Below, in pieces: positions 25,720 through 40,244 of a DNA stretch of 64,000 nt. The notes beneath the pieces were generated by a model, which was given only the letters and a program-made list of their open reading frames with translations, was not told the origin of the DNA and searched no databases. A program made the position numbers and the translations under genes. How positions within the stretch are numbered: the first letter of the stretch is position 1; each line of letters begins with the position of its first letter. Source of the stretch: Brevundimonas sp. MYb52 (GTDB lineage Bacteria > Pseudomonadota > Alphaproteobacteria > Caulobacterales > Caulobacteraceae). The DNA lies in NCBI RefSeq assembly GCF_002979535.1, contig NZ_PCPB01000001.1, positions 496,001 through 560,000 of the forward strand. The letters run 5' to 3'.

Positions 25720-25760
25720 GCGGACACAGGCATTAAGCGCGCCTGACGCACACGTCATGA

Positions 25761-25837
25761 GGGCGGCTAGCTCAGCTGGTCAGAGCATCTCGTTTACACC
25801 GAGAGGGTCGGCGGTTCGAACCCGTCGCCGCCTACCA
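25761..25837 (+). tRNA. tRNA-Val (anticodon TAC)
   Basis: A complete tRNA: acceptor stem GGGCGGC with GCCGCCT, D arm TAGCTCAGCTGGTCAGAGCA, anticodon stem CTCGT/ACGAG-like with loop TTTACAC giving TAC, T arm GGCGGTTCGAACCCGTC and encoded CCA. It ends the conserved tig-hup block and marks the left edge of the accessory island. Confidence 0.97.
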
Positions 25838-26070
25838 TTATTTCTCATAAAATACAGTGAGTTGCTGGAAATCTAGCGACGCCAAATGCTCCGAGTTCGG
25901 AACAAATTGGGTCAAGGGGGGCAATAGGGGGGCAGTTTCTGCGGATTTCGCTGAAACGTCCTGAAATGGTTCTGGCCCCTTGAGGCCTGTTTGGGACCCC
26001 AAGCGATCAGCGCTTGATGATTTTTTCGCATGAAGGGTTGTTGTGGCGTCGACTAGACGCCCGAGCCTGA
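25838..26070. other. AT-richer non-coding junction after tRNA-Val
   Basis: Right after the tRNA CCA the sequence becomes visibly poorer in GC (TTATTTCTCATAAAATACAG and so on). It holds two GGGGGGCA copies (25916-25923 and 25927-25934). No credible gene starts here; a minus-strand frame of 78 codons lacks coding character. Such a junction is typical of tRNA sites used by integrative elements, but I see no integrase gene and no second copy of the tRNA end, so an old or decayed insertion is the most that can be inferred. Confidence 0.4.
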
Positions 26071-26283
26071 TCAATCGGCTCTGTCGAACCCAGTCGTGGC
26101 GATTGCTGCCGGGATCGAGGCCACGGTTTCATCGCCGTGGATCACATGCACCATGACAGCGCTGGCGTGCCGCGCCATCAGTCGCGTGGCTTCGCTTGTG
26201 GCGGCCTGGGCGCATTCGGCTTCCAGGATCTCGAGGTGCGAGGGGGTCGGGCCACCAGTTTCGATCAAGCAGAAGTAGACCAT
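26071..26283 (-). CDS. Small hypothetical protein
   Basis: A 70-residue soluble protein with mixed strand and helix pattern (MVYFCLIETGGPTPSHLEIL, then AATSEATRLMARHASAVMVH, then VIHGDETVASIPAA). The ribosome site is weak (GAGAGAT). A plus-strand frame of similar length overlaps; the minus reading has the more protein-like composition. It is the first island gene after tRNA-Val. Function unknown. Confidence 0.45.
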   Translation of the reverse strand: MVYFCLIETGGPTPSHLEILEAECAQAATSEATRLMARHASAVMVHVIHGDETVASIPAAIATTGFDRAD

Positions 26284-26410
26284 GGCAAATCTCTCAGACC
26301 AAACGGCGGGAGTTTGCGGCGTGCGCTACCGATCTCTTCCAGTCGCAGGCGCCTGGATGATCCCAGCCTGCAATACACCAAGGCTACACTGAAGAACGTC
26401 TGCGCGTCCT

Positions 26411-26420
26411 AACCTATGTT
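26411..26420 (+). promoter_or_regulatory. AACCYATGT motif, copy 1
   Basis: AACCTATGTT, the dyad-like motif that also occurs upstream of two Crp/Fnr genes and a 40-residue gene. Here it reads toward the small plus-strand gene at 26547, about 130 bases away. Confidence 0.4.
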
Positions 26421-26546
26421 GGTATCATTATTTCCCTTCCGTGTTTCAGTCCGCGGTCGGGAATTTCCGAATAAGTTTTTTACGCTCGGCGGTAGGACAC
26501 TCTGCGCCAACCCCTTTGCGCTTTTCGCAATGCTCCAGGAGTGTCG

Positions 26547-26654
26547 ATGAAGCGTCTCGGAAGCAAATTTCTGATCCTGATGATTTGCGGCACCGCCATC
26601 TTCACTCTCGTGAGCCTTGGCGTCCTCGCCCAAGGTATTGTTGCGTTGGAGTGA
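26547..26654 (+). CDS. 35-residue single-span membrane protein
   Basis: A very short reading frame with a good ribosome site: AGGAG five bases before the ATG. The product has a basic start (MKRLGSKF), one hydrophobic span (LILMICGTAIFTLVSLGVLA) and a tiny polar end (QGIVALE). This is the layout of small regulatory or stress membrane peptides. It lies in a region with no other credible gene. I do not recognise a family; confidence rests on the ribosome site and the clean membrane segment. Confidence 0.5.
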   Translation: MKRLGSKFLILMICGTAIFTLVSLGVLAQGIVALE

Positions 26655-26754
26655 GAGCCGCGCATACCTGCCCTCGCGTCCTGCTCGCGCGCGCCAGGTG
26701 CACAAGAGTATCCATCCGGTCATTTCGGAACGTCAGGATGACGATCGACGCTTA

Positions 26755-26806
26755 TCCCTTATGACGGACCGCCATCCTGCTCCCTTATGACGGACCGCCA
26801 TCCTGC
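26755..26806. repeat. Perfect 26-bp tandem repeat
   Basis: Two head-to-tail copies (26755-26780 and 26781-26806), each starting TCCCTTATGACGG and ending CCGCCATCCTGC. They lie between two small membrane-protein genes, about 80 bases before the second. Confidence 0.95.
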
Positions 26807-26884
26807 ATATCAGGCTTGCAAGTCCACTCACTCGCAACCGGGGGAGGGTGCTCACCAGCCCCGCTCTCGACCAGGAGATGACCG

Positions 26885-27031
26885 ATGAACTTTGTTCTCT
26901 TCGGTCTTGGTGTTGTGTTCACCGCTATCGCCGTCGTCGCCATAAGACGGAGCAGGCGCAAATCAGTCACGCACAATCGCGATGAAGGAGACGACGACGG
27001 GGCGCCTGCGTCCACGGGGGACGACACCTAA
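26885..27031 (+). CDS. 48-residue single-span membrane protein with acidic tail
   Basis: The ATG follows CCAGGAGATGACCG, a good ribosome site. The protein has one N-terminal membrane span (FVLFGLGVVFTAIAVVAI), a basic stop-transfer stretch (RRSRRKSVTHNR) and an acidic tail (DEGDDDGAPASTGDDT). Topology with the tail in the cytoplasm is likely. Unknown family. It precedes an EcfG-type promoter and a stress gene on the same strand. Confidence 0.5.
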   Translation: MNFVLFGLGVVFTAIAVVAIRRSRRKSVTHNRDEGDDDGAPASTGDDT

Positions 27032-27107
27032 GGTAAGGACCTCGCGATCATATCTGTGCCTTGGACAATTGCCGGGGTCGGGGCCGCTATGCCGCCTTAT
27101 GTGCTCA

Positions 27108-27132
27108 GGAACCTGTTTCCGGCCGATCGGTT
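27108..27132 (+). promoter_or_regulatory. EcfG-type promoter of the PNPOx-fold stress gene
   Basis: GGAAC (27108-27112), 16 bases, GGTT (27129-27132), 25 bases before the ATG at 27158. Confidence 0.72.
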
Positions 27133-27157
27133 GATCGCTGACACAAGGAGACGTTTC

Positions 27158-27658
27158 ATGAGTGATCATCTGACTCCAGCTGAGGCGGAGACGGCGTTTT
27201 GGAAAAGCCTCAAGCAGTCCAACACGGGCATGCTGGGGATCGACCGTCCAGGATATCATCACCAGCCGATGACTGGATTTGGCGAGCCCGAAACCGGGAC
27301 GATCTGGTTCTTCACGCGCAACGACACGGACTTCGCTCGAGACGTCGCCGCCGGCGGTCAGATGGGAATGTTCTGTTACCAGGCCAAGGACGAAAAGCTT
27401 CAGGCCTGTATCCACGGGAGGCTGGCGATCGATCTGGATCGCGAGCGCATCGACCGCTTCTGGAACCCCGTCGTTGCGGCCTGGTATCCCGATGGAAAGG
27501 CCGATCCGCATCTGACTCTCATACGCTTTGATGGCGATGACGGTCGGGTCTGGGTTTCGGACACGGGCGTGCTCGGCTTCGGCTACCAGATCCTCAAGGC
27601 AAACCTGACCAAAAGCACGCCTGACGCTGGCGGGGTCGCGGACGTTAATCTGAGCTGA
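27158..27658 (+). CDS. Pyridoxamine 5'-phosphate oxidase-fold general stress protein
   Basis: A 166-residue flavin-reductase-like split-barrel protein, close in layout to general stress protein 26. It has an N-terminal helix (ETAFWKSLKQSNTGMLGI), the strand segment GTIWFFTRNDTDFARDV, and ACIHGRLAIDLDRERIDRFW with WNPVVAAWYPDGKADP, the part typical of this stress subfamily. The start at 27158 follows AAGGAGACGTTTC and lies after the EcfG-type promoter; longer upstream starts would overlap it. A cytoplasmic flavin- or F420-dependent redox role is likely from the fold. Confidence 0.85.
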   Translation: MSDHLTPAEAETAFWKSLKQSNTGMLGIDRPGYHHQPMTGFGEPETGTIWFFTRNDTDFARDVAAGGQMGMFCYQAKDEKLQACIHGRLAIDLDRERIDRFWNPVVAAWYPDGKADPHLTLIRFDGDDGRVWVSDTGVLGFGYQILKANLTKSTPDAGGVADVNLS

Positions 27659-27807
27659 CGAACCGTGGCAGGCCCTGCGCGAGCGTCAAATCGTCGGGTT
27701 TTCAGTCCAACCGCCGCCACGCGCGCGGCCTTGGCGAGGGCGGGACAGACATATGCGGCGAGAGGACTGAGCCTGGCGGACAGGACGGCCGTGACGGCCC
27801 TGCTGCA

Positions 27808-28653
27808 TTAGGCGTCCGCCTCTGGATCGGCGAGCTCTCCCTGGGCCTGCAATCGGTAGCCCGCGTTCCCGGTTCGAGCGTTATGGCCTGAAGGGGGGAG
27901 ATAGAGGCTCGGGGCGACCCCCACCTGGCGCTTGAACATGGTCGAGAAGTTGCCGGCTCCCTCGTAGCCGAGGTCGAGCGCGATGGTTGTGACGGCTTCG
28001 CCGGCCGCGAGCCGGGGCAAGGCGACGGCCAGACAGGCCCTCTGCCTCCATTCTCCAAAACTCAGTCCCGTCTCCTGTCGGAACAGACGCGTGAAGCGGC
28101 GTCGATTCATGGCGAGGCGGTCGGCGAAACCGTCGATGGTGGCGTTTGCATGGGGCCTGTTCAGAAAGGCCTGACAGAGCTCGGCCAGGGCGGCGTGAGA
28201 CGGGAAGGGGACGGCGAAGCCCGCCGGAGGCGCCTTGTCGATCTCGGTCAACAGCAGGCTCATGACGAGACCGTCGCGCCCCGCGAGGTCGTATTCGGCG
28301 GGTATGTCGAAGGCTTCCAGAAGAAGCTGGCGCAGCAGCGGCGAGACGGCGACGACCTCGCACGTCCTGGATCTGGCCGCGCATTCGCCGGCCTCGATCA
28401 GGACGCTGCGGGTCTGCACAGAACCGACCATCTTCACGGCGTGGGGCGTCTCGCCAGGTATCCATACGCCGCGTTCCGGAGGCGCCACCCAGGCGCCATG
28501 CGGGGTGCTGACCACCATGACGCCGCTGGCGGCGTAGAGAAACTGGGCCCGGCGATGGCGGTGCTCGCCCAGCTCGAAGGCGGGCGGGTAGCGGCGGCCC
28601 AGAGCCACGACGGCTCTGGGGACTTCGTCCATGTCATCGCGTTGGAGCACCAT
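27808..28653 (-). CDS. AraC family transcriptional regulator
   Basis: A 281-residue regulator with an N-terminal cupin sensor (FELGEHRHRRAQFLYAASG, then WVAPPERGVWIPGETPHAV) and a C-terminal double helix-turn-helix (TIDGFADRLAMNRRRFTRLF, then AVTTIALDLGYEGAGNFSTM followed by FKRQVGVAPSLY). This is the AraC/cupin class that often sits divergent to the transporter it controls. It is transcribed away from the Fsr-like exporter gene across 125 bases. The inducer is unknown. An alternative start lies seven codons in. Confidence 0.88.
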   Translation of the reverse strand: MVLQRDDMDEVPRAVVALGRRYPPAFELGEHRHRRAQFLYAASGVMVVSTPHGAWVAPPERGVWIPGETPHAVKMVGSVQTRSVLIEAGECAARSRTCEVVAVSPLLRQLLLEAFDIPAEYDLAGRDGLVMSLLLTEIDKAPPAGFAVPFPSHAALAELCQAFLNRPHANATIDGFADRLAMNRRRFTRLFRQETGLSFGEWRQRACLAVALPRLAAGEAVTTIALDLGYEGAGNFSTMFKRQVGVAPSLYLPPSGHNARTGNAGYRLQAQGELADPEADA

Positions 28654-28778
28654 GGATGGATTGTCCCAGACTCAGAACTGAATGTCTCGTCTATCGAAGT
28701 GGGATGTAGGTCAACTTGCTATAGCGCTCCGTGAAGGGGCGGACGCGGGGCGTCGGTCCGATTGTATCGAGCGCGCTG

Positions 28779-30014
28779 ATGACCATTCCGACAGACCTGA
28801 CAGACGCGCAACCGGTCCCCAATATGGCGACCTCGCCACGTTTTCTGATCGGGATCGTCGGCGCCGTGGCCTTCGCCCATCTCCTCAACGACCTCATTCA
28901 GGCGGTCCTGCCGGCCATCTATCCGATGCTGAAGACCAAGTTCGCCCTGAGCTTCACCCAGATCGGCCTTGTCGCCCTGGTCTACCAGTTCACGGCGTCG
29001 CTGCTTCAGCCCTGGATCGGCTTCTATACGGACAAGCATCCCAAGCCCTATCTGCTGCCCTGCGGAATGTTCGCCACCCTGATCGGGATCGGCCTGCTGG
29101 CGACCGCCGGCAGCTTCGCCATGCTCCTTGTCGCCTCGGCGGTGATCGGGGTGGGGTCCGCCACCTTCCACCCGGAAGCCTCGCGTGTGGCCCGTCTCGC
29201 CTCAGGCGGACGGTTCGGCACGGCGCAATCGACCTTCCAGGTCGGCGGGAACACCGGGTCAGCCATCGGGCCTCTGGTGGCCTCGCTGATCATCCTGCCC
29301 CTGGGCCTTACCGCTGTGGGATGGCTGGCGGTCGCTGCAGTGACAGCGATCTGGGTCCTCTTTGGCGTCACGCGCTGGCGTATTCGCAATCCTCACGCCA
29401 TGGTCGCGGCCAGGACCCTGAGCGAAGGCCCCCAACTGAGCCGGGGCAGGATCATCGGCGCCCTGGCGGTTATCGCCGTGCTGATGTTCGCCAAATTCAT
29501 CTACATCGGCGCCTTCACCAACTACTTCACCTTCTACCTCATCGAGCGGTTCGCCCTCTCGGTTCAGGATTCGCAGTTCCACCTGTTCGCCTTCCTGGCG
29601 GCCGTGGCGGCGGGAACCTTCGCCGGCGGCCCGATCGGCGACCGGATCGGTCGCAAGGCCGTGATCTGGCTGTCCTTCCTCGGCGCTGCGCCCTTCGCCC
29701 TGTTGCTGCCCTACGTCGACCTGGGGTGGACGACCGTCCTCTCGATCGCCATCGGTTTCATCATGTCCTCAGCCTTCGCGGCCCTGGTCGTCTATGCGCA
29801 GGAGCTCGTCCCGGGCCGTGTCGGCCTGGTGTCAGGCCTGATGTTCGGTCTCATGTTCGGCATCGGCGGCATCGGCGCGGCAGGCCTCGGCCTGCTCGCG
29901 GACGCCAACGGCATCGTCTGGGTCTACAAGCTTTGCGCCGTACTGCCGCTTCTGGGCCTGATCACCGCCCTGCTTCCTGACATGAAGAAGTCGGGGGCGA
30001 CGGGTCGGAGCTAG
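28779..30014 (+). CDS. MFS exporter, fosmidomycin-resistance (Fsr) type
   Basis: A 411-residue major facilitator protein with twelve predicted helices. Key stretches: FAHLLNDLIQAVLPAIYPML, LQPWIGFYTDKHPKPYLLP, VGSATFHPEASRVARLASGG and GGPIGDRIGRKAVIWLSFLG. The HPEASR motif in helix four is characteristic of the Fsr subfamily. It should export small toxic compounds using the proton gradient. I chose the ATG at 28779 over a GTG at 28731 because the extra residues look unrelated. Control by the divergent AraC gene is probable. Confidence 0.87.
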   Translation: MTIPTDLTDAQPVPNMATSPRFLIGIVGAVAFAHLLNDLIQAVLPAIYPMLKTKFALSFTQIGLVALVYQFTASLLQPWIGFYTDKHPKPYLLPCGMFATLIGIGLLATAGSFAMLLVASAVIGVGSATFHPEASRVARLASGGRFGTAQSTFQVGGNTGSAIGPLVASLIILPLGLTAVGWLAVAAVTAIWVLFGVTRWRIRNPHAMVAARTLSEGPQLSRGRIIGALAVIAVLMFAKFIYIGAFTNYFTFYLIERFALSVQDSQFHLFAFLAAVAAGTFAGGPIGDRIGRKAVIWLSFLGAAPFALLLPYVDLGWTTVLSIAIGFIMSSAFAALVVYAQELVPGRVGLVSGLMFGLMFGIGGIGAAGLGLLADANGIVWVYKLCAVLPLLGLITALLPDMKKSGATGRS

Positions 30015-30215
30015 GGGCGCGAGCACGGGCGTCCCTACTTGAGGAGGCGCTGTGTCGTCTTCCAGACATAGGGACCTGAGGGAGGAGAAGGACGTTGGAT
30101 CCTTGCACTCTCCCTGGGAGGAGTCTGCAGGCGGTCGGCTTCGTGATTGCCCCCCTTTGGCGTAACCGGCCGCCTTCCTCCCGAAGCTCCCGCGATGCGG
30201 CGGATGAGTGCGGGG

Positions 30216-30431
30216 TCAGGAAACCGAGGCCGCCACTCGACAGATTTCTATCCCGGAGCGGCTGACCACGACCTCGAGTGCGAAGGCTCCGCCCTCGCGA
30301 ATGGGCTGCTCCCGCATCATCTCCGACAAGAACATGATGGCCTCACGGCGCGCGTCCGCGTCTGTCGCGGATACGCCCTGGAGCACCATGGCGGGCTCCG
30401 GCCCGCGAAGCGTGTAGTCATAGGTCGCCAT
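30216..30431 (-). CDS. Small protein resembling DUF6894
   Basis: A 71-residue soluble protein. After a short strand (MATYDYTLRGPEP) comes a helix rich in ADARREAIMFLSEMM and a final strand pair (FALEVVVSRSGIEICRV). This order is that of the DUF6894 family, common in rhizobial and caulobacterial stress islands, function unknown. No clear ribosome site precedes the ATG, and it is the only minus-strand gene in this stretch, so its reality is moderately supported. Confidence 0.45.
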   Translation of the reverse strand: MATYDYTLRGPEPAMVLQGVSATDADARREAIMFLSEMMREQPIREGGAFALEVVVSRSGIEICRVAASVS

Positions 30432-30667
30432 CGAAAGGTTCTACGCGCGGCGAGCCAAACCGTTCGTGGATGGCGGCTACCCGACACAAGGTCGAGAAGG
30501 CGTTGGAGCGTCGAGCGGCTTAAGGCTTCCGTCGGGTTCGAGTGTCGTCTTCCCGACACAGGCTTCCATGGCGGCGGGGCGGGAGTGAAAGGGCGGACGG
30601 CCCTGGGAGAGGAAACCGGATCGCCAGCGAGGCGCTTGAAGGATCACACATTCAGGAGATCACCAGC

Positions 30668-31246
30668 ATGCATCGCGCCATGACCCTCGTCGCCTTGACC
30701 GTCCTGGTCGCCGCCTGCAGCCCGCAGGGCGGAGAGAAAGCGGTCGACAAGGCCCAGGACGCCGTGTCCGCCCCTGTCGGACAGACGTCCGCCGCCACCA
30801 TGGGGGCCAACCTCGTGAGCGCCTATGCGCCGTCCGCGGCCATGGGCGACATGTATGAAATCCAGGCGGCGGACATAGCGCTCGAGCGCGCGAAGCGCGC
30901 TGACGTCAAGGCCCTGGCCAAAATGATCAAGACCGATCACACAGCCGCCAGCACGGCCTTGAAGACGGCGGTCGCGACGGCGGCGCCTGACATCGCTATC
31001 CCGACAGATCTGGACCAGCGCCGCAAGGGTCTTCTCGACAATCTTCGCTCCGCCGGCGTGAACGATTTCGACAAGGTCTACATCGATCAGCAGGTGGCGG
31101 CCCATGAGGAAGCCGTGACCCTGCATCGGGGCTTCGCGGACAATAGCGATGCGCCGGCCCTGGCGGCGCACGCCCGCACGGTCCTTGCCAAGATCGAGGC
31201 CCACCTTCAGAGGGCGAGGGAGATCCAGACGGCCATCTCGGGATAG
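30668..31246 (+). CDS. DUF4142 ferritin-like lipoprotein
   Basis: A 192-residue envelope protein. A short signal peptide ends at lipobox LVAAC (residue 17 region), so the mature protein is lipid-anchored. A low-complexity linker is followed by a helical DUF4142 domain: YEIQAADIALERAKRADVKA, LAKMIKTDHTAASTALKTAV, and YIDQQVAAHEEAVTLHRGFA near the end. The family is ferritin-like in fold and frequent in stress regions of alphaproteobacteria. CAGGAGATCACCAGC before the ATG is a good ribosome site. The next gene starts four bases after the stop. Confidence 0.85.
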   Translation: MHRAMTLVALTVLVAACSPQGGEKAVDKAQDAVSAPVGQTSAATMGANLVSAYAPSAAMGDMYEIQAADIALERAKRADVKALAKMIKTDHTAASTALKTAVATAAPDIAIPTDLDQRRKGLLDNLRSAGVNDFDKVYIDQQVAAHEEAVTLHRGFADNSDAPALAAHARTVLAKIEAHLQRAREIQTAISG

Positions 31247-31250
31247 GCCA

Positions 31251-31706
31251 GTGGCCCCGCGGCTGAAGGTCTTTGAGTGGTCTGACGGTTTCCATCGCTT
31301 CACGGTGGCGGCCTCATCCCGACCCAAGGCGCTGGCCGCATGGGGCATCCAGCAGGACATCTTCGCTTCAGAACTGGCGCGCGAGGCGGTGGAGAACGAG
31401 GACGAGGCGGCGGCGCGCGCCCGCCCGGGGACGGTGATCGAGCGGGGCCTTGCTGTGGACTTGGGCCGCATCGGTTCGCGTCAGGCCCGCAGGCCGACGC
31501 CCGCGGGGCCGTCGCCGGCGCAAATACGGCGGATCGAAGCCCTGGCGGACGCGCTGCAGGACCTTGAGACATCCCATGCGCGGACCTGCGCCCGGTTTGA
31601 CGAGGAAGGGCGCAGGATCGAGGCCGAGCGGGAGGCGGCGGAGCAGGGTTTCAGGAAGAAGAAGGCGGAACTCGTCCGGAAACTGGAGGCCGCCAGAAAA
31701 GCCTGA
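31251..31706 (+). CDS. Hypothetical coiled-coil protein (often labelled TolA-like)
   Basis: A 151-residue hydrophilic protein beginning at GTG 31251, four bases after the DUF4142 gene. The N-terminal domain (PRLKVFEWSDGFHRFTVAAS, SRPKALAAWGIQQDIFASEL, PGTVIERGL) is compact. The C-terminal third (ARFDEEGRRIEAEREAAEQG and KKKAELVRKLEA) is a charged coiled coil. Similar proteins in Sphingomonadales are labelled cell-envelope biogenesis protein TolA because of the coil, but there is no TolA transmembrane or C-terminal domain here. Function unknown. Probably co-transcribed with its upstream neighbour. Confidence 0.7.
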   Translation: MAPRLKVFEWSDGFHRFTVAASSRPKALAAWGIQQDIFASELAREAVENEDEAAARARPGTVIERGLAVDLGRIGSRQARRPTPAGPSPAQIRRIEALADALQDLETSHARTCARFDEEGRRIEAEREAAEQGFRKKKAELVRKLEAARKA

Positions 31707-31773
31707 TGAGAAGTCCGCCGGACCCGTGCTCACACCGGCGAGGCGAAGGTTGGTCCGGCACCGGGAAAGAGGC

Positions 31774-31986
31774 ATGCCCTATCTGGTCAGCTATGTTTGC
31801 AGAAACCATGACATGGCGACGTGCGTGTCAGACGAGGCGGTCGCCTTGCGACTGGCTGCCGCCTTCGAGGCTCAAGGCCTGGCAGGGGTAGCGATCCGGG
31901 ACGGGCGGAGCGGTGAGGTCTACTCAATCCAGGCCTTCAGATTGTCCCGGCTTCCGGGCCGCTCGGGCATGGCTTCCCTTCGCTGA
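31774..31986 (+). CDS. Small hypothetical protein
   Basis: A 70-residue soluble protein starting at 31774 behind GGGAAAGAGGC. It reads as a single small alpha/beta unit (MPYLVSYVCRNHDMATCVSD, ALRLAAAFEAQGLAGVAIRD, GEVYSIQAFRLSRLPG). Two cysteines lie near the N-terminus. No membrane or signal segment. Same strand as its neighbours and probably part of the same transcript. Confidence 0.5.
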   Translation: MPYLVSYVCRNHDMATCVSDEAVALRLAAAFEAQGLAGVAIRDGRSGEVYSIQAFRLSRLPGRSGMASLR

Positions 31987-32139
31987 TCCGTCCCTTGCGA
32001 CCGCTTGTCGGGTCCAGCTTGGGGGCGGCGACTAGGCGGGCTTTGACGTCAGACGAGATCCCGGGCCGAGCGCCGCCTCGGCGGCAGGGCTGGTGCAACG
32101 CCCCATCCGCCTCGTCGTTGTTCCTCCAGGGAGAAAGAC

Positions 32140-32379
32140 ATGAAGCAACTCACCGCGATGACCATCCTGGCCGTGCCGCTTGTCGCCCTCGGCGCCTGCG
32201 GAAGCCGCGACGCGGAGCGTGCGGCCCCTGAAGCCTCCTCGCTGGAGGCGGACGCGACGAGCGGCGTGGTGGGCGCAAATCCCGGTTCCACCCCGTCCAC
32301 GGGGGTCGCCGACACCCCGGCTCGACAAGTCGACCAGGCCGGGCAGGAGGGGGCGGCTGCACCGCCGCCGCAAAGATAG
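32140..32379 (+). CDS. Small predicted lipoprotein
   Basis: A 79-residue protein with a signal peptide (MKQLTAMTILAVPLVALGAC) ending in the lipobox ALGAC. The mature part is acidic, rich in Ala, Ser, Pro and Gly and probably unstructured, ending in PPPQR. The ribosome site AGGGAGAAAGAC precedes the ATG. It is one of several short lipoproteins in the island and lies directly before the catalase gene. Confidence 0.65.
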   Translation: MKQLTAMTILAVPLVALGACGSRDAERAAPEASSLEADATSGVVGANPGSTPSTGVADTPARQVDQAGQEGAAAPPPQR

Positions 32380-32460
32380 ACGGACGCTCGTCCGCCTCCG
32401 CGCGCCCGCTTTTGCGGGCTTTCAACCCTGTCGCCCGACAACCTGACTGAAGGAAACCCC

Positions 32461-34545
32461 ATGTCCAAGTCGCCCGCTGCAGACGTCCGCCCCGGTGCGG
32501 GCGGCGAACTCCACCAGACCGCCTCAACGCCGGAGGGCCGCCTTACGACAAACCACGGCGCGCCGGTCAGCGACGACCAGAACTCGCTCAAACTTGGGCC
32601 CCGAGGTTCGACCCTGCTCGAGGATTTTGTGCTGCGCGAGAAGATCCAGCACTTCGACCATGAGCGTATTCCGGAGCGGATCGTCCATGCACGCGGATCG
32701 GCCGCCCATGGCTTTTTTGAACTCACCGAGAGTCTGGAAGACTACACAACGGCTAAAATCCTCACCGAGGTCGGAAAAAAGATCGAGGTCTTCACGCGCT
32801 TCTCGACGGTCGCCGGCGGCGCCGGTTCGGTGGATACGCCGCGCGACGTCCGGGGCTTTGCCGTCAAATTCTATACGTCCGAGGGCAACTGGGATCTGGT
32901 CGGCAACAACATCCCCGTCTTCTTCATCCAGGACGCGATCAAATTCCCCGACCTGATCCATGCCGTGAAGATGGAGGCCGACCGCGGCTATCCTCAGGCG
33001 GCCAGCGCGCATGACACGTTCTGGGACTTCATCGGCCTGATGCCCGAGAGCACCCATATGGTGATGTGGGCCATGTCCGACCGGGCCATTCCGCGATCGC
33101 TGCGCATGATCGAGGGCTTCGGCGTCAACACCTTCCGGCTGATCAACGCCAAGGGGGAGGCGACCTTCGTCAAGTTCCACTGGCGTCCCAGGCTGGGGAC
33201 CCAGTCCACCTGCTGGGACGAGGCGGTCAAGATCGCCGGGGCCGACCCGGACTATCATCGGCGCGATCTGTTCGAGGCCATCGATCAGGGCGACTTCCCT
33301 GAATGGGAGTTCGCCGTCCAGCTGCTGAACCAGGCCGAGGCGGACGCCCTGCCGTTCGATATTCTCGATGCGACCAAGCTGATCCCGGAAGAGGATCATC
33401 CTCTGCGGGTCATCGGCCGCATGGTGCTGAACCGAAACCCCGACAACTTCTTCGCCGAGACCGAGCAGGCGGCCTTCCTGCCCACCAACATCGTGCCGGG
33501 CGTCGACTTCTCGGAGGACCCCCTGCTGCAGGGGCGGCTCTTCTCCTATCAGGACACCCAGCTGTCGCGGCTGGGGACCGTCAACTTCCATCAGATCCCG
33601 ATCAACCAGGCCAAGGGGTGTCCCTTCCAGAACTTCCAGCGCGACGGCCATATGCAGACCCAGGTCTTCAAGGGGCGCGCCAACTACGAGCCGAACAGTC
33701 TGTCCGAGGCGGGAGAGGAGGGCGGGCCGCGCGAGGACCCGAAAGGCGGCTTCCGCACCGCCGCCGTGCCGGTGGAAGGCGAGAAGGGCAGGCTGCGCGC
33801 CGAGAGTTTCGCCGACCACTACAGCCAGGCCCGGCTCTTCTTCCGCTCGCAGACGGAGATCGAACAGGCCCATCTGGCCAGCGCCCTCGTCTTTGAACTG
33901 TCGAAGGTGACTCTGGACCATGTCCGGGCGCGCGTCCTGGCCAATCTCCGCAATGTCGACGAGGGTCTGGCCAAGCGCGTGGCGGAGGCCATGAACCTGC
34001 CTCTGCCCAAGGCGTCCGCTCCGGCCGCGACCCCCATCGACCTTGAAGCCTCGCCGGCCCTCAGAATCGTCGGCAAGTATCCGGACAGCCTGAAGGGCCG
34101 CAAGGTCGCGATCCTGGTCGCCGACGGCTCTGACGGCGCGATCGTCGCGGGCGTCCGCAAGGCGGTGGAAGGCGACGGCGGCGCGATCTTCGTCGTCGCG
34201 CCGAAGATCGGCGGGGCGAAACTGGCGGACGGATCCCTTCTCCCCGCTGACGGCCAGTTGGCGGGCAGCCCGTCTGTCCTGTTCGACGCCGTGGCCGTCA
34301 TCCTGTCGGAAGACGGATGCGCCCAGCTTCTGAAGGAGGGCGCGGCGGCGGACTTCCTCAGGGACGCCTTCGGTCACCTCAAGGCCATTGGCCATACGCG
34401 CGAGGTCGGCCCTCTTCTGGATCGGGCCGGGATCAAGTCTGATGAGGGGGTCGTCGACCTGTCTGCGGCCAAGCCGGGGGACTTCCTGCCGCCGGCCCGC
34501 ACCCGGCAGTGGGCGCGGGAGCCAGCCGTTCGCACCCTGGCCTGA
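32461..34545 (+). CDS. katE: Large-subunit catalase HPII (KatE type)
   Basis: A 694-residue monofunctional haem catalase that dismutes hydrogen peroxide. The catalytic histidine segment is [16 protein letters not shown], followed by [20 protein letters not shown] and [20 protein letters not shown]. The proximal haem tyrosine lies in [20 protein letters not shown]. After about residue 540 a class-I amidotransferase-like domain begins ([20 protein letters not shown]), as in E. coli KatE. Length is within the large-catalase range. RBS AAGGAAACCCC. No EcfG consensus was found directly upstream, so its regulation is open. Confidence 0.95.
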
Positions 34546-34557
34546 TCCCTTTCCTGT

Positions 34558-35061
34558 TCAGGCGGAGGGCGGGTTTACCCCCTCCCGCTGGACAGACGGC
34601 GTTCGACGTTTGGGACCTTCGCGAAGAATGAGGGTGGTTGCGGCCAAGGTCAGGAGGTCTTCGGCCAGGCCGCTGCGTGTCTGGCCGAAACGGCGCATGG
34701 CGCGCTTGCGAAGCGCCAGGCCGGCATAGCCGCCCAGGATTGCGCCCGCGACGCCCAGGGCAGCGGCGGATGCGCGTGAACTGCGAGGCGCAAGGGCGGC
34801 GCCGGCGACCCCTCCGGCGAACAGCCTGGCCGCCAGCCCGGGAGGGACGGTCCTGTCCGGTGCAGACCGCATCTTGTCGCCGAGCATTTCTCCGATCGCC
34901 AGAGCGCTGGCGGCGATCGCAGCGGACCTTTTGCCGATAACTGCTGGAGCGCCATTGTCGCGGGCGAGGCTGCCGGAACGCGCCGCCAGCGCCACGGCGG
35001 CGAGCGGCGTCATGGAGCGCTGGCCGGCGACCAGTCCGATAAGCAGGGGGCGAAGGTTCAA
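34558..35061 (-). CDS. DUF4126-like membrane protein
   Basis: A 167-residue protein with several hydrophobic segments (LRPLLIGLVAGQRSMTPLAA, SSRASAAALGVAGAILGGYA, LAEDLLTLAATTLILREG). The GQRSMTPLAAVALAA start and the glycine-rich central helices match DUF4126-type inner membrane proteins. I place the start at a TTG (35061) seven bases behind AAGGAG; the ATG at 35100 overlaps the likely promoter transcript start and has no ribosome site. It is divergent from the 71-residue gene at 35205. Confidence 0.7.
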   Translation of the reverse strand: MNLRPLLIGLVAGQRSMTPLAAVALAARSGSLARDNGAPAVIGKRSAAIAASALAIGEMLGDKMRSAPDRTVPPGLAARLFAGGVAGAALAPRSSRASAAALGVAGAILGGYAGLALRKRAMRRFGQTRSGLAEDLLTLAATTLILREGPKRRTPSVQREGVNPPSA

Positions 35062-35089
35062 GGCGAGCTCCTTTTCGGTTTGGAGGGGC

Positions 35090-35114
35090 AGCGCCCGCAA
35101 CGCCTTTGGGTTCC
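35090..35114 (-). promoter_or_regulatory. Weaker EcfG-like promoter of the DUF4126-like gene
   Basis: GGAAC (35114-35110), 16 bases, then CGCT (35093-35090), one mismatch in the -10. Position relative to the TTG start is suitable. Confidence 0.4.
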
Positions 35115-35158
35115 AAAGGCCCTGGACCTGACTTTGCGGCCCTGCGTCATCCGCTCCG

Positions 35159-35183
35159 GGAACCGTAGCCGTCGGCTTTCGCT
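35159..35183 (+). promoter_or_regulatory. Weaker EcfG-like promoter of the 71-residue gene
   Basis: GGAAC (35159-35163), 16 bases, then CGCT (35180-35183), with the same -10 mismatch as the divergent partner. The ATG at 35205 lies 21 bases further. Confidence 0.4.
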
Positions 35184-35204
35184 CTCTCTTGCCACGGAGG
35201 AAAC

Positions 35205-35420
35205 ATGACCCAGATCCACGTTATCGAGCGCGCCTTTCAGATCGCCGACGAGAACCGCGCCTGCCTCAAGATTTCTGATCTTCAAGAAGCCCTGGCCCGC
35301 GAAGGCTATACGCTGAACGATTTCGCCCATCTCGACGGCTGGACCATTCGCGAGCAGTTGCGGGCTCGGATGAGGGCGCGTGCCGAGGCTCGCCCGGAGC
35401 TGCGAACCGCCCCCGCCTGA
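35205..35420 (+). CDS. Small helical protein of unknown function
   Basis: A 71-residue soluble protein, mainly helical (VIERAFQIADENRACLKISD, LQEALAREGYTLNDFAHLDG, WTIREQLRARMRARAEARPE). The pattern resembles a small DNA- or protein-binding helical unit but no motif is diagnostic. GGAGG stands seven bases before the ATG, so expression looks efficient. Divergent from the DUF4126-like gene, with a shared promoter region. Confidence 0.65.
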   Translation: MTQIHVIERAFQIADENRACLKISDLQEALAREGYTLNDFAHLDGWTIREQLRARMRARAEARPELRTAPA

Positions 35421-35544
35421 CGTCGTTTCGCTCGGGCGGCGAAGGCCGTGGGCGCCAATCCAGCCCTCGAGGCTGGAAGGTCTGGGGCCGTTGATCAAAC
35501 GGGGGCTGGAGCCAGGCCTTGCAAGATTAGAGTCTGGCTGGGCC

Positions 35545-36390
35545 CTAGCCTGCGCGCGCCAATGGAGCCGAGGCGACCACGCCCTCCGGCTCGGCGACGT
35601 CGCGAGACGGTGAACCGGGATGCGCAGGCGACCAGGAGGCCGCTTCCGTAGCGAGACCTGTGCTCCGCACCGCCGACCGGGGTGTCGCTGAGACCGGCGC
35701 GACAGCTTCGCCGCAACCGCAGGAGGCCTGACGCAGGCCGACGAGATCGAGCACCTGGACCTTGCCTCGCCCGAAGCGCACGAGGTTCTGGCCCTGAAGC
35801 CGGGCGGCGGCGGCGTTGACGCTGGTTCTCTGGACTCCAAGCATTCCCCCGAAATCAGCCTGGGTGAGAAAGAGCGGCGCGCCGTTTCCGCCGCAGTGGA
35901 GCCGAACCAGCCATTTGGCCAGCCTTTCGGGCACCAGGTGAGAGGCGTTGCACGCCGCCTCCGTCGCCAGGGCGTCAAGACGGGCGGTCGCATGACGCGC
36001 CACGAGACGGGTCAGCCATTCCCGGCCCATGGCCTCCAGGAGGGGAGCGGCGGCGGCGCGGCAGACGACGGTGTCGATCAGGGCTCGCGCCTCCGGGCGA
36101 CGGGCACCCGGTTCAAGAGCCTGATCCCAGCCGTGGACGGAACCGGCTGTCACCGCGGCCACGCAGATGCGGCCGCCGCCCGGGAAGAGGCCGACGACGC
36201 CCGAGAGGATGAAATAGAGCCCGCCGTCGTTCGGCAGGACCTCGCCGGCCGCCAGCGACGCCCTGTGACCACAGGCTTCTATCCGGGCCTGGGCGTCAGC
36301 AGGCAGGGCCTGGAATACCGGGTGATCCTGAACCTCAAGGCGAGAGCGAGGGGAAGAGGCCATGGCTGCTAGGCCGGTCGTGGTCTGCAT
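35545..36390 (-). CDS. Crp/Fnr family regulator, first of three
   Basis: A 281-residue regulator. The cyclic-nucleotide-binding-like beta roll covers residues 20-115 (FQALPADAQARIEACGHRAS, GGLYFILSGVVGLFPGGGRI). A long helix follows (LTRLVARHATARLDALATEA). The winged helix has LTQADFGGMLGVQRTSVNAA and LVRFGRGKVQVLDLVGLRQA. There is no N-terminal iron-sulphur cysteine cluster. A CGCG motif near residue 222 and a disordered 50-residue tail extend it beyond the usual 230 residues. An AACCCATGT motif lies 56 bases before its start. Confidence 0.85.
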   Translation of the reverse strand: MQTTTGLAAMASSPRSRLEVQDHPVFQALPADAQARIEACGHRASLAAGEVLPNDGGLYFILSGVVGLFPGGGRICVAAVTAGSVHGWDQALEPGARRPEARALIDTVVCRAAAAPLLEAMGREWLTRLVARHATARLDALATEAACNASHLVPERLAKWLVRLHCGGNGAPLFLTQADFGGMLGVQRTSVNAAAARLQGQNLVRFGRGKVQVLDLVGLRQASCGCGEAVAPVSATPRSAVRSTGLATEAASWSPAHPGSPSRDVAEPEGVVASAPLARAG

Positions 36391-36441
36391 GTCGCACTCC
36401 TAAGAGGGGGAGTGTGGCCCATGGCGGGGCGGTCGCCACTT

Positions 36442-36450
36442 ACATGGGTT
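36442..36450 (-). promoter_or_regulatory. AACCYATGT motif, copy 2
   Basis: On the minus strand AACCCATGT, 52-60 bases before the ATG of the first Crp/Fnr gene (36390) and in the same orientation as the other copies. Confidence 0.45.
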
Positions 36451-36511
36451 AGGAGACCGGGGGCCGGTGAACCGCGCCCGCGCGGCTGGACGACGTAGGG
36501 CCCGCAGCGGA

Positions 36512-36536
36512 GGAACCGGGAAAGGGCTGGATGGTT
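36512..36536 (+). promoter_or_regulatory. EcfG-type promoter overlapping the start of the second Crp/Fnr gene
   Basis: GGAAC (36512-36516), 16 bases, GGTT (36533-36536). The -10 covers the ATG at 36531, so transcripts from here would need a later start codon. Confidence 0.65.
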
Positions 36537-37301
36537 TTGCAAGCGTTGCCGCAGTGGGCGGTGCGGATTCTGGAGGTCATCCTGATCAGTCCCCTGATCG
36601 ACAAGCTGTCGCGTCGAGATTCCATCTCTGACGAGGAAAAGGCCGTTCTGGCGGATGTGGTCGCGCCGCCGGTCACCCTGAAGGCCGGCGACAACATCGT
36701 CGAACAATATGATCGCCCGTCGCGCAGCACGCTTCTGCTCGAAGGCTTCGCGGCGCGATATGTCGTGCTGATGAACGGCGCGCGCCAGATCACGGAACTC
36801 AATGTCCCGGGCGACTTCGTCGATCTCCATAGCCTTCTCATGAGCCCGATGGATCATGGCGTGGTCTGTCTGACGGACTGCAAGGTGGGCTATTGCCCCC
36901 ATGAGGCCCTGCGTTTCATTTCCCAGACCCAACCCCACCTGACGCGCCTTCTGTGGTTGGAGACCCTCATCGACGCCGCCGTGCATCGCCAATGGCTGGC
37001 GGGCTTGGGGCGGCGCACGGCTTTCGAGCGGTTCGCCCACTTCCTGTGCGAGGTCTATCTTCGCCTGGCCTCCGTGGAGCGGGCGGAAGGACATCGGATG
37101 GAACTGCCTCTCAGCCAGGCCATCCTCGCCGACGTGCTTGGCCTCTCGGCCGTCCACGTCAACCGATCCGTGGCCCAGCTCCGCGCCGACGGCCTTGTCG
37201 AATGGAGCGGACGCAATATCAGGATCCTGGACTGGGACCGTCTGGTGCGGGTGGCGGAGTTCGATCCGACCTATCTGCGCCTGGGGCGCGATCCGGTCTG
37301 A
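36531..37301 (+). CDS. Crp/Fnr family regulator, second of three
   Basis: Up to 256 residues. The sensor roll includes VTLKAGDNIVEQYDRPSRST, LLEGFAARYVVLMNGARQIT and LNVPGDFVDLHSLLM; the HTH is LSQAILADVLGLSAVHVNRS, with the wing at LVEWSGRNIRILDWDRL. This is the common alphaproteobacterial Crp/Fnr class without the Fnr cysteine cluster. The frame opens at ATG 36531, but that lies inside an EcfG-type promoter. A GTG at 36561, or a CTG at 36582 behind GGAGG giving an N-terminus LISPLIDKL, are better starts if that promoter is used. Coordinates keep the longest form. Confidence 0.85.
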   Translation: MVLQALPQWAVRILEVILISPLIDKLSRRDSISDEEKAVLADVVAPPVTLKAGDNIVEQYDRPSRSTLLLEGFAARYVVLMNGARQITELNVPGDFVDLHSLLMSPMDHGVVCLTDCKVGYCPHEALRFISQTQPHLTRLLWLETLIDAAVHRQWLAGLGRRTAFERFAHFLCEVYLRLASVERAEGHRMELPLSQAILADVLGLSAVHVNRSVAQLRADGLVEWSGRNIRILDWDRLVRVAEFDPTYLRLGRDPV

Positions 37302-37320
37302 GCCTGTCCGGGCCGCAGCC

Positions 37321-37443
37321 TCAGTGACGCCCGGAGCGCCGGGGCCAATGGGGATGGGGCAGGCGTCGGGACGTCCGCATGGCGGGTGTCCGGCCCAGCA
37401 AGAAGGCGACGAGACGCCGCCAGAGCTCTTCAGGTCGAGGCAT
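37321..37443 (-). CDS. 40-residue basic protein with a strong ribosome site
   Basis: A short frame with GAGGAGG six bases before ATG 37443, the strongest Shine-Dalgarno match in this part of the island. The product starts MPRPEELWRRLVAFLLGRTP, an amphipathic helix with a hydrophobic face, then a basic, proline- and histidine-rich tail ending RSGRH. It ends 20 bases from the convergent Crp/Fnr gene stop. An AACCCATGT motif lies about 55-64 bases upstream. Family unknown; could be a regulatory peptide. Confidence 0.55.
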   Translation of the reverse strand: MPRPEELWRRLVAFLLGRTPAMRTSRRLPHPHWPRRSGRH

Positions 37444-37497
37444 GACCAGCCTCCTCGGCAAGGGCGCATTCTGATCCTGCTCCGGGCAAGATCAAAC

Positions 37498-37507
37498 AAC
37501 ATGGGTT
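37498..37507 (-). promoter_or_regulatory. AACCYATGT motif, copy 3
   Basis: AACCCATGTT on the minus strand, about 59 bases before the 40-residue gene. It runs into GGGTTAACCC (37503-37512), a perfect 10-base palindrome. Confidence 0.45.
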
Positions 37508-37562
37508 AACCCGGCCTCTGGCGGACGCGAGGTTCTCTCGTCCGCCGCGGCGAAGCCCGCCG

Positions 37563-38306
37563 TCAGAGGCTTGGACCGCAGTCGGCGCTCAGGTTGGCGG
37601 CCTGGGCCAGGCTCGTGAGGTTCTGCAGGACCGCCCGCCCGGCTCTGTAATCGACCAAGGCGTTGCGCCTGAGCTGCTGCAGGGTTCGGTTCATATGCAC
37701 GGCGCTGAGGCCCAGGATGTCCGCAAGAATATCCTGGGTCAGCGGCAGATGGAGCACCCCCGCCACGACGGGACCCAGACGCGCCTGGCGTTCGTGGAGC
37801 TCCAGCAGGAGATGGGCTGTGCGTTCGTAAGCGTTGAGCCGACCCAATCTTATGACCTGGCGCGCCATGCGCAGGCGTTCGGCCGTGCGGTAATGCCTCC
37901 AGGCTTCCAGCAGCGGCGGACTCTGCGTCCGCAGCTCGGACATGCCGGTCCAGAAGGCGGTGCCGTCGATCGTGACGACGTCCGTCAGGGCCCAGACCAG
38001 CATGTCGGTGTCGACCGCGCCGGATGCGACGATCATCTCGCCGGGCAGATTGAGGCCCACGATCTGGCGACGTCCGTCCTCCAGCATGGCGCCGCGTGCG
38101 GCCCAGCCCTTGAAGACCAGTCTGGCTTCATTGCGCTCCGGAGCCAGGATGACCGGGCTTCCCGCCGCATGGGTCTGCAGCACCCCGGTGAAGCAGTCCC
38201 GGATATAGGCGATGTCGTCGGCGCCAAGCGGCCCGAAACTGGACAGCATCCGCTCAAGCGACGCGGTGTGCCGGGTTTCGTGATGGGTTTCCGACTGATT
38301 CTTCAT
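37563..38306 (-). CDS. Crp/Fnr family regulator, third of three
   Basis: A 247-residue regulator of the same overall build as the second. The sensor part includes LERMLSSFGPLGADDIAYIR and RLVFKGWAARGAMLEDGRRQ, then VGLNLPGEMIVASG. The HTH is LTQDILADILGLSAVHMNRT, nearly the same recognition helix as the second regulator (LGLSAVHVNRS), so the two may bind related DNA sites. The Fnr cluster cysteines are absent. An AACCTATGT motif lies about 46 bases before the ATG. Its ribosome site is weak (TCTAAGGCC). Confidence 0.87.
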   Translation of the reverse strand: MKNQSETHHETRHTASLERMLSSFGPLGADDIAYIRDCFTGVLQTHAAGSPVILAPERNEARLVFKGWAARGAMLEDGRRQIVGLNLPGEMIVASGAVDTDMLVWALTDVVTIDGTAFWTGMSELRTQSPPLLEAWRHYRTAERLRMARQVIRLGRLNAYERTAHLLLELHERQARLGPVVAGVLHLPLTQDILADILGLSAVHMNRTLQQLRRNALVDYRAGRAVLQNLTSLAQAANLSADCGPSL

Positions 38307-38347
38307 GGCCTTAGACCAACAGCATGGCTTCGGCGTTTTTGTTCTTC

Positions 38348-38356
38348 ACATAGGTT
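38348..38356 (-). promoter_or_regulatory. AACCYATGT motif, copy 4
   Basis: AACCTATGT on the minus strand, 42-50 bases before the third Crp/Fnr gene. The 260 bases from 38307 to 38568 hold this motif and otherwise no gene or clear structure. Confidence 0.45.
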
Positions 38357-38568
38357 GGTTTCGCGCGACTTGGCGCGCGGTTCTGAAGGCCCCGGACCCG
38401 ATAGCCGGGCCCTCCTGTCTCAAGCGCATGTCGGCTCTTCGCGCCTCCGCGGTGAGACGGCGGGCAGGAAGACGGACGCCGCGACGTCTCCAGGGAGGGC
38501 CGCGGATTCCTGGCCGCCGTGTCCCCGAGGCGATCGGGAGGCGGCGCCGTCGGCGGCCAGGCTCTCCT

Positions 38569-38742
38569 TCAGGTGATCTTCTTGGCGGCTGCGAAGCCCA
38601 GGAAGAGGAAGATCACGAAGACGATCAATGCGAGGATGGCCAGGAATTTGGCGATCCCCGCTGCGGCGCCGGCGATCCCGCCGAACCCGAGAAGGCCAGC
38701 GACGATGGCGATGACCGCAAAGATAAGGGCCCATTTCAGCAT
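38569..38742 (-). CDS. DUF1328 small membrane protein (YtjA-like)
   Basis: A 57-residue protein with two hydrophobic helices ([20 protein letters not shown] and [19 protein letters not shown]) and the characteristic short basic end (AAAKKIT). DUF1328 proteins are small inner-membrane proteins induced by stress, with no known activity. The start at 38742 follows AAGGAG and gives the family length. A promoter with GGAAC-N17-CGTT spacing lies upstream. Confidence 0.88.
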
Positions 38743-38773
38743 ACGAATTCTCCTTAAGCGCCGGAGCCAGCCC

Positions 38774-38799
38774 AACGTCGCCCCGTCTCGCAGGGTTCC
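38774..38799 (-). promoter_or_regulatory. EcfG-type promoter of the DUF1328 gene
   Basis: GGAAC (38799-38795), 17 bases, CGTT (38777-38774): exact elements with a spacer one base longer than most copies here. About 30 bases before the ATG. Confidence 0.6.
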
Positions 38800-38806
38800 A
38801 GAGTTT

Positions 38807-38832
38807 GGCCCGGGGGCCGCGGGCCCCGGGCC
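38807..38832. other. GC-rich perfect hairpin
   Basis: GGCCCGGGG pairs with CCCCGGGCC around eight bases. It lies in the 380-base gap between the DUF1328 gene and the next plus-strand gene, without a T-run. It may insulate the divergent transcripts. Another GGAAC-N16-TGTT match at 38921-38945 is too far from a start to call. Confidence 0.4.
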
Positions 38833-39073
38833 TTGATCCCGACAATCCGGATTTCATGGCTCGAAGCGATCGATATCGGGAAAGCCCTGGGTCGGGTTCC
38901 CGACCCAGATGACCCGCGGTGGAACCGGCGCCAGGGCGGGCTGTTGGCCTCGATGAGGTCTCCCGGGGGGGAGGCCTGCTTGACGGCCCGGTTTGTCGTT
39001 CGCCCGCTGCGCGACAGATCGGGTCGCTTCAATCCGGCGAGGCTGCAGGTCCATCTGCTCGCGGGGGCGGCGA

Positions 39074-39098
39074 GGAACAGCCAGGCTGAGGCGGCGTT
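39074..39098 (+). promoter_or_regulatory. EcfG-type promoter of the TIGR02587/02588 operon
   Basis: GGAAC (39074-39078), 16 bases, CGTT (39095-39098): exact consensus. Transcription should start near 39105, which rules out the GTG at 39105 and supports the ATG at 39126. Confidence 0.75.
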
Positions 39099-39125
39099 GC
39101 CATAGTGAGCCGATTGAGAGGTCAC

Positions 39126-39422
39126 ATGATCCCCGAAGAAAGCCGTCGCCACGCCAAGGCCGCACAAGCCGTCCGGGAGGGGCGCCCTGTCGCTGCTCGT
39201 TATGTCCGGGGCGGAAGGCGCGGATCCCGGGTGCTCGCCATACTGGTCGCTTCCACGGCCGCCGTCGCCGTCCTGCTGCTCGCGATCTGGGCCGCAGCCA
39301 ATGGCGTCTTCATCAATCAGAATCCGACAGACGCCCAGCAAGCGGCTGACGCCCGAGCCTTCGACGAGGCAGGTCCGCCCGCGCCGGATGTTGCGACGGC
39401 TGCAGCGGCTGTCTCCGACTAG
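39126..39422 (+). CDS. Small single-span membrane protein, first gene of operon
   Basis: A 98-residue protein with a basic N-terminus (MIPEESRRHAKAAQAVREGR), one membrane span (VLAILVASTAAVAVLLLAIW) and an alanine-rich acidic C-terminus. GAGAGGTCAC precedes the ATG. It ends three bases before the TIGR02587 gene, so the two are certainly co-transcribed. Unknown family; its constant partner suggests a role in the same membrane complex. Confidence 0.65.
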   Translation: MIPEESRRHAKAAQAVREGRPVAARYVRGGRRGSRVLAILVASTAAVAVLLLAIWAAANGVFINQNPTDAQQAADARAFDEAGPPAPDVATAAAAVSD

Positions 39423-39425
39423 ACC

Positions 39426-40244
39426 ATGAGCGCCGTCGCCGCCCGCAAATCCCAGGAGGCGGACTATGTTCGCGACCTGGGCCGCGCTTTCGGCGGCGCG
39501 CTGTTGTTCAGCTTGCCGCTTCTCATGACGATGGAGATGTGGGCCCTGGGGCACGCCGCGACGCCCGAACGACGCCTGGCCTTTACCCTGGCGGCCTTGC
39601 CCGTGCTTTTCGGACTGGCCCACTATGCAGGTTTCTCCGCGCGTCGCGGGGCCTTGAACAATCTCCTCGATACCCTGACGGCGCTCGCGGTGGGCTTTGT
39701 CACGGCGGGCGGGCTCCTGGCCCTCTTCAATGTTCTGGACTGGAGCTCGCCGGCCTCAGCAGCCGGTCAGGTCTCGCTGCAAGCTGTACCGGCCGCGCTT
39801 GGTGCGCTCGTGGCCCGACGTCAGCTATCGAACGGAGGGGGAGAGGGTGACGAGGATCAGGCCTCCTATCCGGGCGAGCTTTTTCTCATGCTGGCCGGCG
39901 CCCTCTACTTCGCCATGAATGTGGCGCCGACGGAAGAAATGCGGCTGATCGCCTATCGCGCTACGCCCCTGGGTGCGCTTGGCGTCCTGCTCCTGTCCGT
40001 AGTTCTTCTGCATCTCATCGTTTTCGAGGCCGGCTTCGCCGGCCAGGAGGACAAGGAGTCGCCGCTGCGCGCCTTCATTGATTTCACTCTGCCAGGTTAC
40101 GCCCTCTGCCTCGTCGCCAGTTTCGCCATGCTGTGGACCTTCGGCGGCCTCGACGGCCATGGGCTCCAGTCGCTGGTCGCCAATGTCGTCATTCTCGCCT
40201 TTCCCGCCGCCATAGGCGCGGCGGCGGCGCGGCTTCTGGTCTAG
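39426..40244 (+). CDS. TIGR02587 family membrane protein
   Basis: A 272-residue inner-membrane protein with about seven helices. Characteristic segments are EADYVRDLGRAFGGALLFSL, PLLMTMEMWALGHAATPER, AALGALVARRQLS, ELFLMLAGALYFAMNVAPTE and EEMRLIA. The combination matches the TIGR02587 family, known from alphaproteobacteria and usually found beside a TIGR02588 gene, as here. No biochemical function is established for the family. The ATG follows within five bases of the previous stop. The EcfG promoter at 39074 would drive it. Confidence 0.85.
   Translation: MSAVAARKSQEADYVRDLGRAFGGALLFSLPLLMTMEMWALGHAATPERRLAFTLAALPVLFGLAHYAGFSARRGALNNLLDTLTALAVGFVTAGGLLALFNVLDWSSPASAAGQVSLQAVPAALGALVARRQLSNGGGEGDEDQASYPGELFLMLAGALYFAMNVAPTEEMRLIAYRATPLGALGVLLLSVVLLHLIVFEAGFAGQEDKESPLRAFIDFTLPGYALCLVASFAMLWTFGGLDGHGLQSLVANVVILAFPAAIGAAAARLLV

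Follow-up and report, generated by a model that had tools for sequence, protein, structure and literature searches.

What is the short word that recurs before Crp/Fnr regulator genes of Brevundimonas sp. MYb52, and which protein would read it? The question is raised by a 64,000-nucleotide stretch of this genome (contig NZ_PCPB01000001.1, positions 496,001 to 560,000; "the window," whose own coordinates are used below), in which three genes for Crp/Fnr regulators lie close together: CR1 (35545–36390, minus strand), CR2 (36531–37301, plus strand) and CR3 (37563–38306, minus strand). An earlier note on this DNA had claimed four copies of the word AACCYATGT, and four exact matches are indeed present, at 26411–26419 (+), 36442–36450 (−), 37499–37507 (−) and 38348–38356 (−), here called copies 1 to 4; only the position given for the third, 37498, was one base off. 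The computed expectation is 0.20 per window, lower than the one chance occurrence per 64 kb that the note had assumed, and at least four matches occurred in none of 100 dinucleotide shuffles. We think it likely that these copies are the conserved part of a predicted operator, TTMAC-N4-GTKAA, for Crp/Fnr proteins with a VHxNR-type recognition helix, through which Crp/Fnr genes would be activated.

The full element is an FNR-type dyad of 14 bp. Copy 1, CTAACCTATGTTGG (26409–26422, +), lies upstream of the gene for a 35-residue membrane-type microprotein and is conserved in Brevundimonas bullata, L054; copy 2, CTAACCCATGTAAG (36439–36452, −), lies in the divergent intergenic region between CR1 and CR2 and is conserved before CR1 orthologs; copy 3, TTAACCCATGTTGT (37496–37509, −), precedes the gene for a 40-residue microprotein; and copy 4, CCAACCTATGTGAA (38345–38358, −), precedes CR3. 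Counted between the first motif A and the A of the start codon, the distances are 60 bp from copy 2 to CR1 and 50 bp from copy 4 to CR3 and, as calculated from coordinates, 64 bp from copy 3 to the microprotein ATG at 37443 and 136 bp from copy 1 to 26547; read in reverse orientation, copy 2 is also 90 bp before the CR2 ATG. The window copies are imperfect, but the two 5-bp halves and 4-bp spacer are perfect in TTCACCTATGTGAA (L219), TTCACATATGTGAA (L315) and CTAACCTAGGTTAG (L292), the last two near CR2-like genes, and it is the variants TTCACCTATGTGAA, CTAACCTAGGTTAG and TTAACGCATGTTAT that reveal the form TTMAC-N4-GTKAA. The note had seen a shared AAC-N4-GTT dyad and an extension to AACCYATGTT in two copies; the dyad and the extension (copies 1 and 3) are real, but the dyad reaches beyond AAC-N4-GTT to 14 bp. 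Two other readings of the word were discarded: a start–stop minimal open reading frame, as the CR1 and CR3 copies read ATGTRA (the dyad half GTRA explains this, and copies 1 and 3 read ATGTTG), and a structured RNA leader (25500–39500 gave no match to Rfam).

The dyad form also brings to mind the box of CtrA, the cell-cycle regulator of the Caulobacterales, which is TTAA-N7-TTAA, and some copies do look like TTAAC-N4-GTTAA. The spacing would be 6 and not 7, however, most copies have no TTAA at the right end (GTAAG, GTGAA) or at the left end (CTAAC, CCAAC), and the placement is mostly restricted to Crp/Fnr genes, unlike that of a large regulon; we give a CtrA box almost no credence.

How specific the word is depends on its length. 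Over the whole 3.41-Mb genome the bare 9-mer lacks specificity: it has 23 copies (reversed control, 0), and among the 19 that lie outside the window a local codon score marks 11 as clearly coding, with others probably coding too. The base that follows is C in 16 of these 19 copies (as in Gly/Glu-Thr-Tyr-Val codons) and in none of the four window copies. The longer 13-mer YYAACCYATGTDR has four copies in the genome, only at the four window places. The comparison with coding sequence that the note had proposed as a refutation thus goes half against the bare 9-mer, whose outside copies are mostly coding. Looser sites elsewhere in this genome (ten rows, of which four are the window copies and two are one place) had no Crp/Fnr gene recognised nearby when open reading frame lists were read by eye, without profile scoring.

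Conservation of position carries the argument further. All 12 CR3 orthologs examined (own included; identity down to 50%; start codon uncertain in two) keep the sequence AACCTATGT about 44–50 bp ahead of the ATG, and the dyad core is unchanged among them while the upstream flanks of distant orthologs are dissimilar. Across 61 genomes of the genus YTAACCYATGTNR has 31 copies versus 6 for the reversed pattern, and across 101 Brevundimonas genomes YYAACCYATGTDR has 75 copies versus 14 for its reversed control. Fifty of these 75 lie no more than 5 kb from listed Crp/Fnr genes, where about 0.2 would be expected, since the listed neighbourhoods cover 0.26% of the sequence; the list was compiled by hand and contains CR2-like genes, so the presence of CR2 in all 23 of the genomes with such near copies is partly built in. 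A Crp/Fnr open reading frame starts 25–100 bp downstream, in most cases at 44–60 bp, in 52 of the 86 distinct motif contexts (a set that includes loci L133–L162 and L193–L208, chosen because they bear the motif), and the motif-to-ATG distances, typically 44–67 bp, cluster at 49–50 bp for CR3-type genes, at 45–60 bp for CR1-type genes and at 45–46 bp for a fourth type found elsewhere, CR4. Among the other 34 contexts several are microprotein sites, three (L278–L280) are the same site reversed, 45–46 bp before a VHVNR gene, and the remainder includes many CCAACC words with no conservation to be seen. Chance clustering of a frequent, coding-derived word would fit the abundance of the bare 9-mer in coding DNA, but not a promoter position conserved across species nor the enrichment within the genus and outside it (below), and its probability is negligible in our estimate.

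Which genes carry the site was counted with a 14-bp weight matrix; it was trained on Brevundimonas sites, so that counts within the genus lean towards the site, and the motif-selected loci named above are included. With these limits the site lies upstream of 19 of 19 CR4 genes, 26 of 41 CR1-type genes, 12 of 21 CR3-type genes (11 of 11 above 200 bits) and only 1 of 54 CR2-type genes; those CR4 genes that stand in the loci from which the Crp/Fnr list was compiled and the matrix-only sites L033, L036, L255 and L258 were not motif-selected. CR1-like genes that lack the QRTS helix mostly lack the site as well. The single CR2-type case is a CR2 ortholog (L050/L315) from a genome without a CR1-type match (G003); the perfect dyad TTCACATATGTGAA lies 96 bp upstream of its own start. 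Beside CR2 itself, in 15 of 30 loci the site starts 4 bp past the stop codon of CR2 and is oriented towards the next Crp/Fnr gene, and in one further locus it lies 15 bp past the stop; one locus was unparsed.

This placement, nearly always ahead of genes of the CR1, CR3 or CR4 type and hardly ever ahead of CR2, could mean that the operator serves the proteins encoded directly behind it, each regulating itself, and VHxNR genes outside the genus do carry the site before themselves. We regard such general self-regulation as rather unlikely: the helices of CR1 and CR4 (QRTSVN and RRAS) are unlike those of CR2 and CR3, yet CR1 and CR4 share one element, and the site is missing from QRTS-type CR1 genes of three genomes that have no CR2 (as it is, to be fair, from one copy in a genome with CR2).

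The recognition helices point instead to CR2, and probably also CR3, as the predicted binders of the dyad. All three window proteins match HTH_Crp_2 above its curated cut-off, and cNMP_binding is above its cut-off in CR2, below it in CR1 (a weak domain) and not detected in CR3. The helix reads LSAVHVNR in CR2, LSAVHMNR in CR3 and QRTSVN in CR1. The closest solved relative of CR2 is FixK2 (4i2o, E 4.8e-14), of the same family and with an alignable helix-turn-helix, in which Leu and Glu stand opposite Ala and Val of CR2; on our reading of this alignment these would be CRP positions 180 and 181 (numbered as in PMC1274295). The aligned CR2-like proteins have Val or Ile at position 181, and CR3 has Val. 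According to excerpts of PMC1274295, residue 181 is tied to a half-site base and residues other than Glu go with TTAAC-type half-sites: the site of HcpR2 (Pro181) is GTAACnnnnGTTAC, and that of NssR (Ala180, Gln181) is TTAACnnnnGTTAA. By this code CR2 and CR3 would suit a TTAAC-type site, and the helices of CR1 and CR4 differ; the argument is independent of the genome statistics. The note's suggestion that all three regulators may bind is thus borne out in prediction for CR2, which lies between copies, and for CR3, whereas CR1 lacks the helix and is probably only a target.

Several known systems resemble the predicted one in part. The NssR box of Campylobacter jejuni has the same 14-bp architecture and half-site, read by a protein with Ala180 as in CR2 and CR3 and no Glu at 181; it belongs to another phylum and, in the same excerpts, to a globin gene and nitrosative stress, as against Crp/Fnr and microprotein genes as the predicted targets here. 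The alphaproteobacterial NnrR box, ctTTGcgnnnncgCAAag (PMC1274295, excerpts), is likewise a Crp/Fnr dyad with N4, with the half-site TTGCG and not TTMAC. In the excerpted parts of PMC5398030 the Fnr/Dnr boxes of Dinoroseobacter shibae, TTAAC-N4-GTCAA, share the TTAAC half-site, the N4 spacer and a Crp/Fnr cascade with the Crp/Fnr gene dnrE among the targets, but their other half is GTCAA and their regulators serve low-oxygen metabolism and denitrification. FixK2 retains Glu where CR2 has Val, and none of the three window proteins is an equivalog by the NCBIfam FnrL and FixK score of 300 (CR2 74 and 51 bits, CR3 62 and 40 bits). The FixK2 box is of the TTGA type. The PrfA box of Listeria, TTAACAnnTGTTAA, belongs to a Crp/Fnr regulator of a Gram-positive virulence regulon and has nearly the same 14 bases; the left half here is TTAACC. 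FNR proper, the oxygen sensor, has Glu in its recognition helix and a TTGAT half-site; it was rejected as an identity for CR2, whose helix AVHVNR lacks the Glu, and TTGAT dyads were found in none of the 63 upstream regions described next.

VHxNR-type Crp/Fnr proteins occur in several alphaproteobacterial genera, and the non-Brevundimonas matrix matches cluster 20–100 bp before their genes, with none just past the start. After removal of near-identical sequences (69 reduced to 63), 13 of 63 VHxNR upstream regions outside the genus score at least 10 bits. Column-shuffled matrices (2000 of them) gave 0.32 on average and never more than 4, the reversed matrix gave 0, and among other open reading frames of the same loci the count was 4 of 655. 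The presence of the site before these genes themselves makes autoregulation of CR3 likely, so that CR3 would perhaps reinforce itself. The operator is evidently looser outside Brevundimonas than the Brevundimonas word: a class-wide motif of fixed form, TWACCYATGTTA, was rejected, as it occurs in 79 of 289 genomes and its reversed control appeared no rarer by eye, unsummed.

That last result is one of several that weigh against an operator read by CR2. A matrix-free palindrome count upstream of the non-Brevundimonas genes was not above shuffles. The site is asymmetric, AACC.ATGT being better conserved than a perfect dyad requires. Nine of the 30 CR2 loci have no site beside CR2 with 0–1 mismatch allowed, and distant Brevundimonas VHxNR paralogs (e.g., L035, L036, L039, L040) have none upstream. 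The site is also missing from four QRTS-type CR1 genes; three of them belong to genomes that have no CR2 ortholog (G052, G005, G024), and the fourth is a second copy in G069 (L311), where CR2 is present; because of this last copy the link between site and CR2 is strong but not absolute.

Promoter geometry bears on what the operator would do. The D. shibae boxes lie 39.5–41.5 bp upstream of the target start (PMC5398030, excerpts), and if this geometry is valid here a −10 hexamer is expected to start at motif position 35. Among the positions scanned in 28 representatives (reduced from 59 sites), the mean match to TATAAT peaks at position 35, with 1.79 versus 1.03 (standard deviation 0.17) at random offsets. 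In the window the putative −10-like hexamers are TTCAGT for copy 1 (26445–26450, +; conserved in B. bullata), CACACT at motif positions 35–40 for copy 2 (36411–36416, −), and CAGAAT for copy 3 (37468–37473, −); the −10-like position of copy 4 reads CTGTTG (38317–38322, −), and a GTGCTGTTG-like stretch is conserved there in orthologs. FNR-type Crp/Fnr operators are centred near −41.5 or −61.5 relative to the transcription start. The operator centre would here fall at about −41.5 from the predicted start, the class II activator position.

A sigma factor is another conceivable reader of such promoters, since AAC is typical of −35 boxes of extracytoplasmic function (ECF) sigma factors and C-CAT-T resembles the −10 box of RpoH; AACC could then be the former or CCYATGT the latter, and EcfG-type sites do occur nearby. 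No conserved partner box was found for either reading, neither downstream at ECF spacing nor in the unconserved upstream flanks, the −10-like hexamer lies at a distance of about 34 bp, and perfect dyads exist, so we consider a sigma-factor box very improbable. A window scan for the EcfG promoter itself (GGAAC-N16-18-CGTT) found promoter-like sites in the window and none at the four copies. One, GGAACC-N16-CGTT (38774–38799, −), is 32 bp before a DUF1328 gene (38569–38742), and another (12952–12976, −) precedes a gene (12313–12894, −) for an ECF sigma factor that matches PhyR_sigma2 and is probably EcfG itself, autoregulated.

From the observed sites, their placement, conservation and spacing, we infer binding, CR2 as the principal binding paralog and activation in preference to repression. 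Activation by CR2 is the most likely mechanism: because the operator centre would fall near −41.5, CR2 would activate a second layer of Crp/Fnr regulators, with CR1, CR3, elsewhere CR4, and the two microprotein genes as predicted targets; repression may operate in its place. More tentatively, the LSxVHxNR subfamily may have TTMAC-N4-GTKAA as its own operator, with a strict CR2 regulon almost wholly of altered-helix Crp/Fnr regulators and the two microproteins, some targets being nearly leaderless, as an operator 45–46 bp before the ATG would imply.

The 40-residue microprotein (37321–37443, −) carries the signature [FL]GRxPxMR, which is found again behind the motif in L027, L055, L062 and L288 in proteins of 40–80 residues; the window copy, tested from a slightly longer start, had no Pfam match. 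The 35-residue microprotein (26547–26654, +) is conserved in L054 of B. bullata, where a close relative stands behind the same motif. The B. bullata locus L062 also holds seemingly broken extra copies of CR1 and CR3 type (G001:C2:465855–466509 and 470375–470856), which suggests recent turnover of the cluster. The surroundings of the motif copies (26000–48500) contain a cluster of stress-like genes (catalase, DUF4142, DUF1328, YflT-like, and a CHASE3/GAF hybrid kinase with three receivers).

No published operator for VHxNR-type Crp/Fnr proteins was found in the open-access literature that was searched, and among the matches listed for the exact string AACCTATGT there were only unrelated papers. 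The earlier note was largely right in expecting a shared site read by Crp/Fnr proteins, a prediction now strengthened by the invariant core in orthologous promoters, the near-exclusive Crp/Fnr placement in the genus and the matches before VHxNR genes elsewhere. By these sequence criteria the element appears to be genuine and conserved, an operator of a familiar kind serving a class of Crp/Fnr proteins that is apparently not yet characterised, with its binding predicted. What is unusual is that other Crp/Fnr genes make up most of its predicted targets, and this placement suggests a cascade in which a regulator controls regulators. Val or Ile at position 181 is a new data point consistent with the published Crp/Fnr recognition code, and if the reading is true the two conserved microproteins would be co-regulated partners. 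The 14-bp site, together with its predicted binder, targets and promoter geometry, makes an unknown class of regulators testable at the bench.

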